Positions 5,275 through 11,083 of a stretch of DNA of 40,214 nucleotides are shown in pieces. The position numbers and the translations under genes are program-made. Location: positions 1 through 40,214 of the forward strand of contig JANJTN010000084.1 of NCBI GenBank assembly GCA_024711065.1. The letters are read 5' to 3'. Within the stretch, counting starts at the first letter, position 1. Every line of letters starts with the position of its first letter. Source of the DNA: a bacterium. Lineage in GTDB: Bacteria > Bacteroidota > Ignavibacteria > Kapaibacteriales > Kapaibacteriaceae. Under the pieces are notes generated by a model that did not search any database, was not told the origin of the DNA, and saw only the letters and a program-made list of their open reading frames with translations.

Positions 5275-8200
5275 ATGAGCAGAAGATTTCTACTTCTTGC
5301 CCTCATTTGCAGCCTGTTCGGTGTTGGAGTGGCCGTTGCTGCAGACGGGAAGGATGGAGAGGAGATCCAGCGGAAGAGCGGGGCGCGTAACCCTGTTGCT
5401 TCCTATCCTCTGCCGTTCGTCCTTGCTGCGGACAACCCACGCACGCAGCCGCCGATCTCGACAGGTTATTACTTCGTGGATTCGGACGACGACGCTGCCG
5501 ACTTCTGGCGTCCAGACCCGTCGCAGTTCGTAGACACGCTCACCGAGGTGGCAACGTGGCGCCGGATCGTTTCGGGCCCGGGACAGTTCCCGGAGTCCTA
5601 CTGGACCGACCCGACGCAGAACAATTTTGGTGGTCATGCCTATTTCCGGAACCCCGGAAACAGCCAGGACTCGACGGACGACGCCTTCGCAGGCCCGATC
5701 TCGATCGGCTTCCCGTTCTACTTCAACGGGGTACGGTACGACTCGTTCTACGTGTCGACCAACGGTCTGATCGCCCTGACCAACCGCCGCTACTTCTATG
5801 AGTACGACGAGTTCGGCTACCCAACGCAGAAAGCCCTTGTGGAAGTCTCGCCGGGTGTGTTCTCGGCCTACGACCCGGCTTCGGACGATACGCGTGCCCG
5901 CTCCGGCAATGGCATGACGGATAACACGGCCGACAACTATGGCTATCAGTTCGTTGCCTGCGGTAACGCTCCGACCAACGCCACGGCCGGTATCCGGACG
6001 CGCACCAACACCATGTTGCAGGAAGCGAACCTCGCTGCCTGGAACTTCACGGTCAACGGCCAACGCTGCCGTCCGGCCCTGATCGCCCCGGCATGGGACG
6101 ACCTTCAGGTGTCGGTGTACAATGACGACCTGAGCGAAGTGGACGACTTCTCGCGCGTGTACTACAAGCGCTCGCCGGCCAACGACAAGCTCATCATCTA
6201 CTACGTGAACCTGACCCCGATCCGCGGCAAGACCGCCGTGGTCGGTGGCGTTCAACACAACGTAACGTTCGGTGCCAACAACCGTCCGGGCCAGGGCGAG
6301 CACTATCGCTTCAGCCTGCAGGTGTCGCTGAACCGCTTCGACAGCTCGGTGGTGGTACAGTATGAGCGTTTCTTCGGTATCGCTCCGCGCGCTGCTCTGC
6401 AGCCGCACGCAGCCACGGTGTGGATGCGTTGTAACTCCACGGTCGGTGTGACCGGTCCGTCGCGCCGCCTGAACTGGGCCGGCTTCCCGGCCGCCATGCC
6501 GTCGAATACCACGCTGGACTACAATGCTGTGAAGTACACGCAGTCCACCGAGTATCTCTACAACGTGCAGACGGATCCGCAGGGCGGCATTCGTGCCATC
6601 TCCAAGCGGAACGACGACAACACGACGCCGAAGGACTTCCTGGCGATCAAGTTCAAGCAGTGGAAGAACATGCTTCGCGTGATCCAGGTGTACTATCGTA
6701 CACACCCGCTGAACGCAAATGCTCCGCTGGACTTCTCGGTGGTGATCCCGTCGGCAGAAGCCAACAACTACGAGATCCTCGCCGGCGAAACGCGCCTTGG
6801 CACCATTCAACCGGTGGCCATCGTGCAGAACCTGACGAACGACGTTCAAGGCCCGCAGGGCGTGAACTACGTGAAGCAGGGGATCAACTTCAAGGTGCGC
6901 TTCCGCATCCAGAACGAGGCAACCGGCAAGATCGTCTATAACACGTCGAAGTCGGTGAACGACGGTGCCCTGAAGGACACGTTGCTCTCTGGTATCGTTC
7001 TTACGGACATCAACGGCGTTGCTCGCCCGTACACGGCAGGCCACTTCGTGAAGCCGTACGAATTCGTTCGTGTGACCTTCCCGCCGTTCGAACCCAACCC
7101 GTTCATCGACGACCAGATCGGCCGTCTGTTCACGTCGGTCGTGGCTGAGCCGCGCGACTCGAACAACGTGCTGTTGGGCGACGAGTGGCCGTTCGACGAT
7201 ACCACGGGTATCCGTCTGTTCGCCATGCGCCGTCTGAACGACTTCAACGACAACGTCACGGAGTACCACCTGGTGGGTGGTGCTGCCATGCCGTCCGTAC
7301 TCAAGTGGGTGAACATCGAAACGGACGTGGTCGACGGCGACGAGATCACGAACAACCCGCCGCCGCCGCGCGGCACGTTCCAGGCTGCCAACTCGACCAT
7401 CTTCGGTCTGAAGTCGCCGGTCATCCGCATGAACCGCGTGAACCTTGGTAACCTCGACATCCCGGCCTTCGGCTCGTATGGTGGCGACGAACTCCGTTCG
7501 TTCCCGATCAACCTGCTCAACAAGAAGCGTCCGGTACTGTCGATCTCCTATCAGCGTGCCGGTAAGCTCACCAACATCGGTCGGGGCTTCTCCGATAACC
7601 GTCTGATCGGTCCGGAACACCAGGTGAACCTGCGTGCGGTGAACGGCTTTACGCCGGGCTATCGTAACCCGGACAAGCTGCTGGTGGAATTCGCCGAGCC
7701 GAGCAAGGATGGTATCAACGGCATCACCAACCTGAAGAAGTGGGTGCTGGACGTTCAGAACCTGAGCAACGACTACCTGCAGCCGTACCAGATCTGGGGC
7801 GGTGGTGGTTATGCTCGTGGCTATTCGCTCACGAACCGCAACCTCCAGGCAACGAACAGCTATGTTCCGCCGGAAGGTGGTCTTCGTGAGGACCTGTTCG
7901 ACGACGGTAAGGACTTCGAATACTACAAGATCACGCTGCCGATCCCGGATACGGTGGTCAACTGGGTGAACGAAGGTGCTCGTAACTTCCGCTTCCGTCT
8001 CAGCGTGCAGGCCGTGAACAACTCGGCACCGCCGATGCCGGCCGACGACGAGGACAACTTCTTCATCGATAACGTGAAGATCCTGTTCCCGGAAGAAGTG
8101 ACCGACGTTGAATTCTCGAACATCCGCCTGATCTGGCCGTACACGCTGGCTCCGGCATCGCAGGCTACCCGCATCCCGATCCGCGTGAAGCTGTCGAACA

Positions 8201-10008
8201 ACACGGATATCGCCGCTCCGGCCTTCTCCGTACGTCTGCAGATCAAGCCGGCCGGTGATGAGTCCCGCCAGATCTATTGCCGTACCATTACGGTTCCGTA
8301 CCTGGCTGGTAACCGCGAAGTGATCCTGCCGTTCCCGGACGCTAACTTCCGTCAGACCACGCCGGGCCGCTACAAGGTCACGGGTCGCATCTTCTTCCCG
8401 GGCAACGACCTGGATACGCTGAACGACTCGACGTTCACGGACTTCGAGATCGCCTTCGGTGATGCCTTTGCCTATGAGACGAACCCGGATCGCGCTACGA
8501 ACGACGTTCCGAAACTGGCCTTCTCCGGTGTGACCGGTAAGGGTCTGAACCACCGTGGTTCGAACGGTGGCGGTAACGGCGCCGTGTGGGGTCAGCTTGC
8601 TGGTCCGTCGCGTCAGTACACCATGGGCAATGCCTGGGGTCAACACCCTGGCGCACTGTCTGCCGACGACATGTACGGCGCCGACGCCGGTAACGCCTCG
8701 GGTCAGATCGGTATGCGATTCACGCTGTTCTCGCAGGACACGGTGATCGGCTACCAGGCCTACTGGGGTGAACTGAACCAGGACATCCTGAACATCGCCT
8801 TCTCGTTGTATCCCGACCAAGGCGGCGTGCCGAGCAACGACCGCGTTCCGAACTCCCGCATCACGCGCAAGCGTGGTGAAGACGAAACGGACGACACGCC
8901 GGAGCCGGTGTTTGGCAAGTACGTAACGTACCTGCTCGCCGAGCCGGTGGTGCTTGCTCCGGGTGAGTATTGGGCAACCGTCCTCCAGGCTGGTACGGAA
9001 GGCTATGAACTCGGTGCTTCCGAAACCCGCATGGGTATGGTAACCACACTGTACTCGGACATTCCGACGTTCGGTATCGGTAACCGTACGCTGATGATCG
9101 ACAAGAACTTCCGTTCGCGTGCCCGTTCCGGCGCGCTGCTGAACGACAACCGCTTTGCCTATGAACTCACGGGTGGGTCCGGCGACTGGTCGCCGTTCAT
9201 GCCTACGATCGGCAACCCTGGTTATCCGCACCTGAACGCCGAAGGTGTCAGCCTCGGCTACCCAACGTTCACTCGTGGCACGTGGATCCCGATGCTGCGT
9301 CCGTACTTCGGTACGCGTTCGTTTGCCAATCCGCCGGTCTACGTGGAGTGTGTGGTTCCTGTGGAACTCACGTACTTCGATGGCAAGCCGCGGACGGCTG
9401 GTGTTGACCTCTTCTGGGAGACCGCATCCGAGAAGAACAACGAAGGCTTCAATGTGGAACGCCGCGCTCTGAAGGAGACCACGGATCTTGTCTCCGGCAA
9501 AACGGGCCTGAGCTGTGTGGATCAAGCAGGCAGCATCGACGATGCTCCGTGGACCAAGATCGGCTTTGTCTCCGGTACGGGTAACTCCACGGAGTCCGTG
9601 AACTACAAGTTCTTTGATGCCAACGTGGCTTCGGGTCACACCTACCAGTATCGCCTGCGCCAGGTGGACTTCGACGGTCGCGAAAGCTTCTCGAACGTTG
9701 TGAATGTGGTGTTCAGCGATAACAACGCTGTAGCCCTGCACGACAACTTCCCGAACCCGACGAGCGACATGACCACCTTTGCCTTCCGCATTCCGTATGC
9801 TTCGGACGTGAAACTTGAAGTGTACGACGTGATGGGCAACCTGGTGAATACGGTGTTCGACGGCATGGTGGCTGGCCAGAACGGCGAGTATCGTGTTGAG
9901 TGGAACGGCCGCAATGCCGCTGGTTACGAAGTGGCTTCTGGCACCTACGTCTACAAGCTCACTGCTGGCGACGTGGTGCTGTCGAAGAACATGACGGTGG
10001 TACGCTAA
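5275..10008 (+). CDS. Large T9SS-secreted surface protein with extreme codon bias
   Basis: 1577 aa. The start at ATG 5275 has GAGG five bases upstream. A signal peptide (MSRRF, hydrophobic core, AVAA) is followed by a region with IGFPFYFNGVRYDSFYVSTN, typical of large exported Bacteroidota proteins. Most of the body has no domain I recognise. Near residue 1365 begins a segment with VPVELTYFDGK, WETASEKNNEGFNVER and YRLRQVDFDG, usual before T9SS tails. The last ~90 residues are a type-A sorting domain (NFPNPTSDMTTFAF, LEVYDVMGN, ASGTYVYKL, final VVR). Export by the type IX system to the cell surface is inferred. Codon use is strikingly restricted: no in-frame TTA, CTA or TCA from 5290 onward, and dominant CGT, GGT, CTG and AAC. 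This suggests a very abundant surface or S-layer-like protein. The widespread AGCCCC(C/T)T octamer is absent from the gene. Confidence 0.93.
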   Translation: MSRRFLLLALICSLFGVGVAVAADGKDGEEIQRKSGARNPVASYPLPFVLAADNPRTQPPISTGYYFVDSDDDAADFWRPDPSQFVDTLTEVATWRRIVSGPGQFPESYWTDPTQNNFGGHAYFRNPGNSQDSTDDAFAGPISIGFPFYFNGVRYDSFYVSTNGLIALTNRRYFYEYDEFGYPTQKALVEVSPGVFSAYDPASDDTRARSGNGMTDNTADNYGYQFVACGNAPTNATAGIRTRTNTMLQEANLAAWNFTVNGQRCRPALIAPAWDDLQVSVYNDDLSEVDDFSRVYYKRSPANDKLIIYYVNLTPIRGKTAVVGGVQHNVTFGANNRPGQGEHYRFSLQVSLNRFDSSVVVQYERFFGIAPRAALQPHAATVWMRCNSTVGVTGPSRRLNWAGFPAAMPSNTTLDYNAVKYTQSTEYLYNVQTDPQGGIRAISKRNDDNTTPKDFLAIKFKQWKNMLRVIQVYYRTHPLNANAPLDFSVVIPSAEANNYEILAGETRLGTIQPVAIVQNLTNDVQGPQGVNYVKQGINFKVRFRIQNEATGKIVYNTSKSVNDGALKDTLLSGIVLTDINGVARPYTAGHFVKPYEFVRVTFPPFEPNPFIDDQIGRLFTSVVAEPRDSNNVLLGDEWPFDDTTGIRLFAMRRLNDFNDNVTEYHLVGGAAMPSVLKWVNIETDVVDGDEITNNPPPPRGTFQAANSTIFGLKSPVIRMNRVNLGNLDIPAFGSYGGDELRSFPINLLNKKRPVLSISYQRAGKLTNIGRGFSDNRLIGPEHQVNLRAVNGFTPGYRNPDKLLVEFAEPSKDGINGITNLKKWVLDVQNLSNDYLQPYQIWGGGGYARGYSLTNRNLQATNSYVPPEGGLREDLFDDGKDFEYYKITLPIPDTVVNWVNEGARNFRFRLSVQAVNNSAPPMPADDEDNFFIDNVKILFPEEVTDVEFSNIRLIWPYTLAPASQATRIPIRVKLSNNTDIAAPAFSVRLQIKPAGDESRQIYCRTITVPYLAGNREVILPFPDANFRQTTPGRYKVTGRIFFPGNDLDTLNDSTFTDFEIAFGDAFAYETNPDRATNDVPKLAFSGVTGKGLNHRGSNGGGNGAVWGQLAGPSRQYTMGNAWGQHPGALSADDMYGADAGNASGQIGMRFTLFSQDTVIGYQAYWGELNQDILNIAFSLYPDQGGVPSNDRVPNSRITRKRGEDETDDTPEPVFGKYVTYLLAEPVVLAPGEYWATVLQAGTEGYELGASETRMGMVTTLYSDIPTFGIGNRTLMIDKNFRSRARSGALLNDNRFAYELTGGSGDWSPFMPTIGNPGYPHLNAEGVSLGYPTFTRGTWIPMLRPYFGTRSFANPPVYVECVVPVELTYFDGKPRTAGVDLFWETASEKNNEGFNVERRALKETTDLVSGKTGLSCVDQAGSIDDAPWTKIGFVSGTGNSTESVNYKFFDANVASGHTYQYRLRQVDFDGRESFSNVVNVVFSDNNAVALHDNFPNPTSDMTTFAFRIPYASDVKLEVYDVMGNLVNTVFDGMVAGQNGEYRVEWNGRNAAGYEVASGTYVYKLTAGDVVLSKNMTVVR

Positions 10009-10037
10009 GCGTCCATCGCTTCCAGTCTGATCAAGAT

Positions 10038-10080
10038 CGAGCCCCTTGCACGCGAGTGCAAGGGGCTCGTTTCGTTTCGT
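10038..10080 (+). terminator. Strong terminator built from an inverted pair of the dispersed octamer
   Basis: A perfect 13-bp stem (10038-10050 with 10057-10069) with a 6-nt loop CGCGAG is followed by a T-rich tail TTTCGTTTCG. It lies 29 nt after the surface-protein stop. Each arm contains one copy of the octamer AGCCCCTT (10040-10047 and its complement at 10060-10067). Confidence 0.9.
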
Positions 10081-10083
10081 GGG

Positions 10084-10091
10084 TATCTTTG
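10084..10091 (+). promoter_or_regulatory. Candidate -7 promoter box for kdsD
   Basis: TATCTTTG matches the Bacteroidota -7 consensus TAnnTTTG exactly and ends only 5 nt before the kdsD ATG. Transcription would start at or very near the start codon, giving a leaderless mRNA. No clear -33 TTG is visible; that position lies inside the preceding terminator. Confidence 0.45.
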
Positions 10092-10096
10092 CCCTG

Positions 10097-11083
10097 ATGT
10101 CCAACGATCAACCCACCAACGAGCGGCTGGCCAGGGCCAGCGCCATGATCGATCTGCAGATCGCGGCGTTGTTGCGCACGCGAGATCATCTCGATCAACA
10201 CTTCCTACGCGCGATCGATCTACTGGCTGCGGCCTCCAAGACGGTCACATCGGGTCTAGGCAAGTCGGCATTCATTGCCCGAAAAATGGCCGCTACCATG
10301 GCTAGCGTGCGTTTGCCCGCTACGTACCTGCACCCTGTAGATGCCTTACACGGCGATTCCGGGATCCTGGATCCGAGTGATGTTCTGGTTGCCTTCTCCA
10401 AGAGTGGCGAGACCCCAGAGGTGATCCGACTGGTGGCTCTTGCCCAGGAGTTGGGCCTCCGGGTGGTTGTGGTCACGTCGCGCCCACAAAGCACATTGGC
10501 GCAGGTTGCCGACGCCTCGGTAGTGGCGCTGATCGAACGTGAACTGGATGCCGATGACCTCCTGCCAACGGCTTCCACAACGTCGGCGTTGATGATGGCC
10601 GATCTTCTGGCGATCGGCACCCTCGAGGCCGCCGGTGGCGCCGAGGAGCGTCTGCGCCGGTCTCATCCCGACGGTGCGATCGGGGCAACGCTGTATCGCA
10701 CCATCAGCGAAGTGATGCACTCAGGATCGGCGTTGCCGCGCGTACCTCCCGGTAGCACACTGAGCGCAGCACTGGTAGAGCTTACCGCAAAAGCCCTTGG
10801 GATCGTGTGCGTGCTTGATGAAGACGACGCCTTGCTGGGTATTCTGACCGATGGCGACGTCCGCCGTCTGGCAGCCTCGGGGTCGGACCTCAGTCGGTTG
10901 GCTACGGACGACGTGATGACGCGCACTCCGATGAGCGTGCAGGCCGGTCACACGTTGCGTTCGGCGTTGGAGATCATGGAGCGCGGCGAACGCCAGATCG
11001 GTGTTCTTCCCGTGCTGGAGGGCAGCCGTTGCGTAGGCGTGATCCGCGTGCACGACATCGTGCGCCTGAACCTTACCCGCTAG
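10097..11083 (+). CDS. kdsD: D-arabinose 5-phosphate isomerase (KdsD/KpsF family)
   Basis: 328 aa. It interconverts ribulose 5-phosphate and arabinose 5-phosphate, the first step towards Kdo for lipopolysaccharide, in the cytoplasm. The start at ATG 10097 gives MSNDQPTNER; an extension upstream would run into the terminator. The N-terminal SIS sugar-isomerase domain shows SGLGKSAFIARKMAATMAS, HPVDALHGDSG and AFSKSGETPE. Two CBS domains follow (VMHSGSALPRVPP...ILTDGDVRR and DVMTRTPMSVQAG...RVHDIVR). Length and domain order are those of the KpsF/KdsD/GutQ family. It is convergent with rodZ, with 12 bp between the stop codons. No other Kdo gene is nearby. A GutQ-type role is possible but less likely. 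Confidence 0.92.
   Translation: MSNDQPTNERLARASAMIDLQIAALLRTRDHLDQHFLRAIDLLAAASKTVTSGLGKSAFIARKMAATMASVRLPATYLHPVDALHGDSGILDPSDVLVAFSKSGETPEVIRLVALAQELGLRVVVVTSRPQSTLAQVADASVVALIERELDADDLLPTASTTSALMMADLLAIGTLEAAGGAEERLRRSHPDGAIGATLYRTISEVMHSGSALPRVPPGSTLSAALVELTAKALGIVCVLDEDDALLGILTDGDVRRLAASGSDLSRLATDDVMTRTPMSVQAGHTLRSALEIMERGERQIGVLPVLEGSRCVGVIRVHDIVRLNLTR

Follow-up and report, generated by a model that had tools for sequence, protein, structure and literature searches.

The window analysed here, that is the whole 40,214-nt stretch of DNA (contig JANJTN010000084.1, assembly GCA_024711065.1, family Kapaibacteriaceae), contains two co-directional genes separated by a gap of 88 nt: a gene encoding a surface protein whose C-terminus comprises a FlgD_ig domain and a sub-threshold match to a type IX sorting tail; and a gene encoding a KpsF/KdsD-like protein (Table 1). 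The gap harbours a hairpin, CGAGCCCCTTGCAC-GCGA-GTGCAAGGGGCTCG, the two arms of which (10038-10051 and 10056-10069) are 100% complementary. The stem starts 29 nt past the TAA of the surface-protein gene (10006-10008) and ends 27 nt upstream of the ATG of the SIS + CBS gene.

Table 1 Coordinates of the features at the locus and of a dispersed palindromic element found elsewhere in the genome.
Feature	Position	Strand	Remarks
Upstream gene, surface protein of ~1,559 aa	5329..10008	+	Mechanical ORF starts at 5275
Hairpin, very probably an intrinsic terminator	10038..10069	+	Stem of 14 perfect pairs, tetraloop GCGA; compensatory changes at the same site in relatives
ARGGGGCT copy in the 5' arm, reading AGCCCCTT on the + strand	10040..10047	-	Extended consensus TGCAAGGGGCTCG
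ARGGGGCT copy in the 3' arm, AAGGGGCT	10060..10067	+	Extended consensus TGCAAGGGGCTCG
T-rich tail TTTCGTTTCG	10070..10079	+	Terminator scan
Downstream gene, SIS + CBS domain protein, KpsF/KdsD-like sugar-phosphate isomerase	10097..11083	+	
ATCCGGGATTACTCATCCCGGAT-like palindromic element	L067:1010, L125:3889, L094:2212, L045:8858-8906		

The RNA fold of positions 10009-10090 reached -37.6 kcal/mol (z = -5.6; 0 of 200 shuffled sequences were equally stable), and the stem is followed directly on its 3' side by TTTCGTTT, with six T in the first eight bases, although the T tract is broken by CG. The site shares with intrinsic terminators the stable, GC-rich, perfect stem at less than about 100 nt past a stop codon, the short loop, the adjoining T-rich tail and compensatory change in evolution (see below), and differs from them in the interruption of its T tract. 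An Rfam search of the window gave no match, the hairpin corresponding to no catalogued RNA. The first-pass annotation, made from the sequence alone, had described this element as a terminator located after the surface-protein gene, with a 13-bp perfect stem containing an octamer in each arm: the position, the T-rich tail and the strong compensation between the arms of the orthologous hairpins support the terminator; the placement, the perfect pairing and the octamers in both arms were confirmed; and the length of the stem has to be corrected to 14 bp.

Hairpins of this type were also counted in a genome sample of 1.41 of 2.56 Mb, in which a home-made dicodon scorer called 1,208 genes (92% coding); sample statistics refer to these 1.41 Mb, and counts for the whole genome were obtained by pattern searching. 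Past stop codons, perfect hairpins with stems of at least 8 bp number 54, compared to 1.6 in shuffled regions; between divergent genes they are less common (1.2 vs 0.2 per kb). Given this enrichment, and the four or more T in the eight bases following 22 of the 54, the genome appears to use such terminators.

The orthologous gap was read in 13 relatives of the same family, using the downstream SIS + CBS (KpsF/KdsD-like) gene as the synteny anchor; in the relatives with a hairpin, the upstream gene ends in a tail similar to that of our genome (...LTAGDVVLSKNMTVVR). A strong hairpin followed by T-rich sequence is present between the same gene pair in 12 of the 13 relatives compared, the exception being G010, with no hairpin in the orthologous gap. 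Most of the relatives have T-rich tails 3' of the orthologous hairpin (e.g. TTTTTTGTTT, TCTTTTTTTG). In the alignment of the 13 stems (our genome plus 12 relatives; the left arm of G006 looks shifted by one base), 94.8% of the cells pair and 11 of the 14 pairs have changed on both sides, giving a covariation score of 0.565, compared to 0.235 in shuffled alignments and at most 0.237 when the alignment was slid. The loop varies among relatives and the stem is preserved by compensatory change, indicating that the RNA structure has been kept in evolution.

We conclude that 10038-10069 is very probably an evolutionarily conserved intrinsic transcription terminator, termination itself being attributed from the known class to which the element would belong. 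RNA polymerase would transcribe the GC-rich palindrome, the nascent RNA would fold into a stem of 14 bp capped by a GNRA loop, the T-rich tail would lead to transcript release, and the surface-protein transcript would end at the hairpin, just ahead of the co-directional KpsF/KdsD-like gene. The same co-directional arrangement, the short gap (88 nt) and the CG within the T tract would also suit a stem that serves the processing or stability of an mRNA spanning both genes, or a DNA palindrome bound by a protein; such roles are very improbable given the T-rich tails of most of the orthologous hairpins (TTTTTTGTTT, TCTTTTTTTG and similar) and the combination of a variable loop with a compensated stem, as for an RNA hairpin. 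Our main reading, to which we assign a probability of roughly 0.83, is that of an ordinary Rho-independent terminator in which the octamer is largely incidental, terminators being no general home of the motif in this genome.

The octamer belongs to a dispersed motif. The window contains 17 copies of it, on both strands, and 40 copies of the wider core A[A/G]GGGGCT. In the 1.41-Mb sample, AAGGGGCT occurs 557 times (29 expected) and AGGGGGCT 714 times (22 expected; third-order Markov model in both cases); because they have their flanks in common, both words are taken as one motif with core A[A/G]GGGGCT and wider consensus KGNARGGGGCTNG, of which both stem octamers are full copies. The single octamer was discarded as too narrow a definition, AGGGGGCT being even commoner and having the same flanks. 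The core has 1,271 copies in 1.41 Mb (about one per 1.1 kb) on both strands, 89% of them coding and in all six frames; by length, the whole genome is estimated to contain about 2,300. The 1,130 coding copies compare with 69 after synonymous codon shuffling; with this 16-fold excess and the use of all six frames, an origin of the motif in codon usage was rejected. The motif is confined to one family, its copy number differs several-fold between close relatives, and it is near background in some genera of the family. The dispersed motif of the first-pass annotation was borne out, as a family-restricted motif overrepresented genome-wide and, within genes, 16-fold over codon shuffle. Searches of the open-access literature on the octamer, its variants and uptake sequences in Bacteroidetes/Bacteroidota returned no account of the motif.

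Each arm's octamer is one copy of this family-specific motif and, because a perfect stem makes the octamer of one arm force that of the other, the inverted pair counts as one event, not two. Within the aligned stems, the octamer is present in both arms in our genome, G003 and G004 and in a single arm in G005, these four belonging to the same genus, and is absent from the other nine of the 13. The stems lacking it include: the AAAAAGCCTTCCGCA stems of G001 and G002, which belong to the same genus as our genome; the C4-5/G4-5 stems of G008, G009, G006 and G012, without an exact motif copy; and the CGAACCCCTTGCCG/CGGCAAGGGGTTCG stem of G013, from a motif-poor genus, which has the same 14-bp architecture and is one base off the motif. 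By sequence comparison, what is conserved at the site is the putative terminator, with the octamer as an optional component of its stem, and stems with C runs also occur where the motif is not enriched; the comparison thus speaks against a part of the octamer in the function. A C4-5/G4-5 terminator stem is at most a substitution or two away from the motif. The terminator probably came first, the motif being there because the stem happened to match it or was tuned to it; this order is the most economical, because the corresponding stems of relatives in motif-poor genera come close to the motif.

The first-pass annotation had further pointed to the recurrent use of uptake sequences in terminator stems in Neisseria and Haemophilus, and had called the single case here suggestive. 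Convergent pairs with a gap of 3-30 nt number 18 genome-wide, compared to 14.5 expected (P = 0.21); in the sample, pairs 8-50 nt apart comprise 14 convergent and 12 divergent ones (11.5 and 11.4 expected). The 10 convergent 3-30 nt pairs of the sample include seven intragenic pairs, the 10038-10069 pair, one pair over a stop codon (L081) and one past tRNA-Phe. A perfect partner exists for 3 of the 108 gene-end motif sites, two of the three being the 10038-10069 hairpin itself, and for 1.2% of random gene-end positions; with one mismatch allowed, 8 of 108 had a partner (6.6 expected). Inverted pairs are thus hardly enriched at gene ends, which comes close to the outcome named in the annotation as refuting its reading. 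Just one of the 54 strict terminator-like hairpins carries the motif. A relaxed scan (GU pairs, one mismatch and loops up to 12 allowed) found it in 7 of 209 hairpins (2.9 expected) and in 4 of 61 T-tailed ones, or 5 of 62 with 10038-10069, counted separately because the scan absorbed its tail into the stem (0.85-2.1 expected). The motif excess in T-tailed hairpins is mild (P between 0.002 and 0.06 depending on the null), and some co-option of the motif into terminators is possible. Recurrent use, that is an excess of close inverted pairs at gene ends, was not observed, the mild excess appearing under relaxed criteria only, and recurrent use in the manner of Neisseria and Haemophilus is not supported by the 18 vs 14.5 pairs or by the 1/54 strict and about 5/62 relaxed hairpins.

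The pair past tRNA-Phe belongs to a hairpin (L045 8791-8824) whose two arms each contain the motif and which closely follows the tRNA gene (8704-8777); its 32-nt AGCCCCTT...AAGGGGCT stretch recurs unchanged in G001 and with a one-base difference in G005.

Close convergent pairs exceed the single-site prediction in several relatives (67 vs 21 in total, motif-site counts of the relatives being estimated with a ratio taken from our own genome), most clearly in G006, G007 and G012. In the motif-rich genomes, convergent pairs number 54 and divergent ones 40 (P = 0.18; a hand count over genomes with full or near-full listings, G007 left out, restricted to pair types visible to both patterns); being nearly equal, they give no pointer to terminators specifically. 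The dispersed motif inverted in both arms is shared with the DUS terminators of Neisseria (GCCGTCTGAA inverted pairs) and with the USS terminators of Haemophilus and other Pasteurellaceae (AAGTGCGGT), the latter signal also being dispersed at about one copy per kb, mostly intragenic and on both strands. In contrast to those systems, in which about 55% (Neisseria) and 17-29% (Pasteurellaceae) of the high-confidence terminators carry the uptake sequence (PMC1852404), the motif is found in about 2-8% of the terminator-like hairpins here, and inverted pairs are in no clear excess. It is against this background (17-55% in the known cases; PMC1852404), and against the 18 vs 14.5 convergent pairs of our genome (P = 0.21), the seven of 10 sampled pairs inside coding sequence and the similar convergent and divergent counts (54 vs 40, P = 0.18), that a Neisseria- or Haemophilus-style co-option, in which the lineage recurrently makes terminators from inverted uptake-signal pairs, has to be weighed. 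The full-consensus arms at 10038-10069, the second case past tRNA-Phe, the mild motif excess in T-tailed hairpins and the close inverted pairs at about 3-5-fold over random in G006, G007 and G012 would fit it; we consider it unlikely, and retain the ordinary terminator.

The hairpin had also been taken as adding to an uptake-signal reading of the dispersed motif. It adds little: since the terminator is kept in relatives that lack the motif there, the inverted pair in it is no evidence for an uptake signal here, and the step from hairpin to uptake signal is a weak one, the result removing one leg of the argument. The uptake reading rests on density, consensus, frame independence, lack of strand polarity, family restriction and same-strand spacing. 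Hundreds to thousands of copies on both strands, unexplained by codon usage, are as in uptake sequences, and no orientation bias was observed: between neighbouring sites within contigs, orientation alternates 770 times and repeats 365 times. Same-orientation pairs within 500 nt are depleted (84 vs about 273 expected), compared to 299 opposite-orientation pairs, and five other frequent octamers lack this depletion. Since same-strand copies avoid each other and opposite-strand ones do not, each orientation would seem to be read separately.

DNA uptake in Haemophilus and other Pasteurellaceae works through type IV pilus machinery. Unlike in that family, no match to an N_methyl pilin (N_methyl being a short model, which makes this negative less than absolute) or to an above-cut-off T2SSE ATPase was found in our genome and 22 relatives, and the type IV pilus machinery with a ComP-type pilin receptor typical of uptake sequences was consequently not seen. 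ComEC and DprA are present in our genome, and also in motif-poor relatives. Riemerella (Flavobacteriaceae) is capable of natural transformation, for which a transposon screen retrieved ComEC, DprA, ComF and RecA together with proteins unlike known machinery (PMC8459023), so competence is compatible with missing pili. We tentatively propose, at slightly less than even odds, that a hitherto undescribed uptake-like signal, KGNARGGGGCTNG, specific to the family, has the octamer as its core, in a lineage with ComEC, DprA, a type IX-like sorting domain and no detectable type IV pilus; same-strand copies avoid each other over about 500-700 bp, opposite-strand copies do not, and a few conserved putative terminators, at 10038-10069 and past tRNA-Phe, carry it in both arms.

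Signals of the Chi or KOPS type are typically polar along replichores. The dispersed motif could be such a Chi-like or chromosome-organising signal, with the hairpin copy there by chance, a possibility that concerns the motif and not the terminator; in favour are the G-richness and asymmetry of the motif and the occurrence of ComEC and DprA in motif-poor relatives too, yet neighbouring sites mostly alternate in orientation (770 vs 365) and copy number differs several-fold between closely related species, which makes this explanation improbable. Chi/KOPS-type polarity in particular was judged unlikely from the same alternations. For the uptake-like signal, the stronger evidence is the family-restricted, frame-independent overrepresentation and the orientation-specific spacing of a motif now sharpened to A[A/G]GGGGCT (wider KGNARGGGGCTNG). 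If it is indeed an uptake signal, sequence-selective DNA uptake would exist in a lineage other than Neisseriaceae and Pasteurellaceae, and apparently in one that lacks type IV pili. The interest of the locus lies in the dispersed motif rather than in an ordinary terminator.

Several minor observations were made on the motif and on other repeats. Convergent motif pairs at 100-200 nt are about twice as frequent as expected (52 vs 27). In the genome sample, the motif spans the stop codon of 20 genes (TAAGGGGCT), and the 25 nt directly past stop codons contain about double the expected number of single copies. Other overrepresented words, mostly intergenic, include GCTAGAC and ATTCCCC runs (period 7, 79-86% intergenic); CAGCTCACAG is also overrepresented in the sample. 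A dispersed palindromic element made of ATCCGGGATTACTCATCCCGGAT-like units, with stems of 13-27 bp, occupies several intergenic regions (Table 1), and an intergenic tract at L027:1-180 consists of repeated CATCCCGAACGAGCGCAGCGAGGAGGGACCCC-like units.
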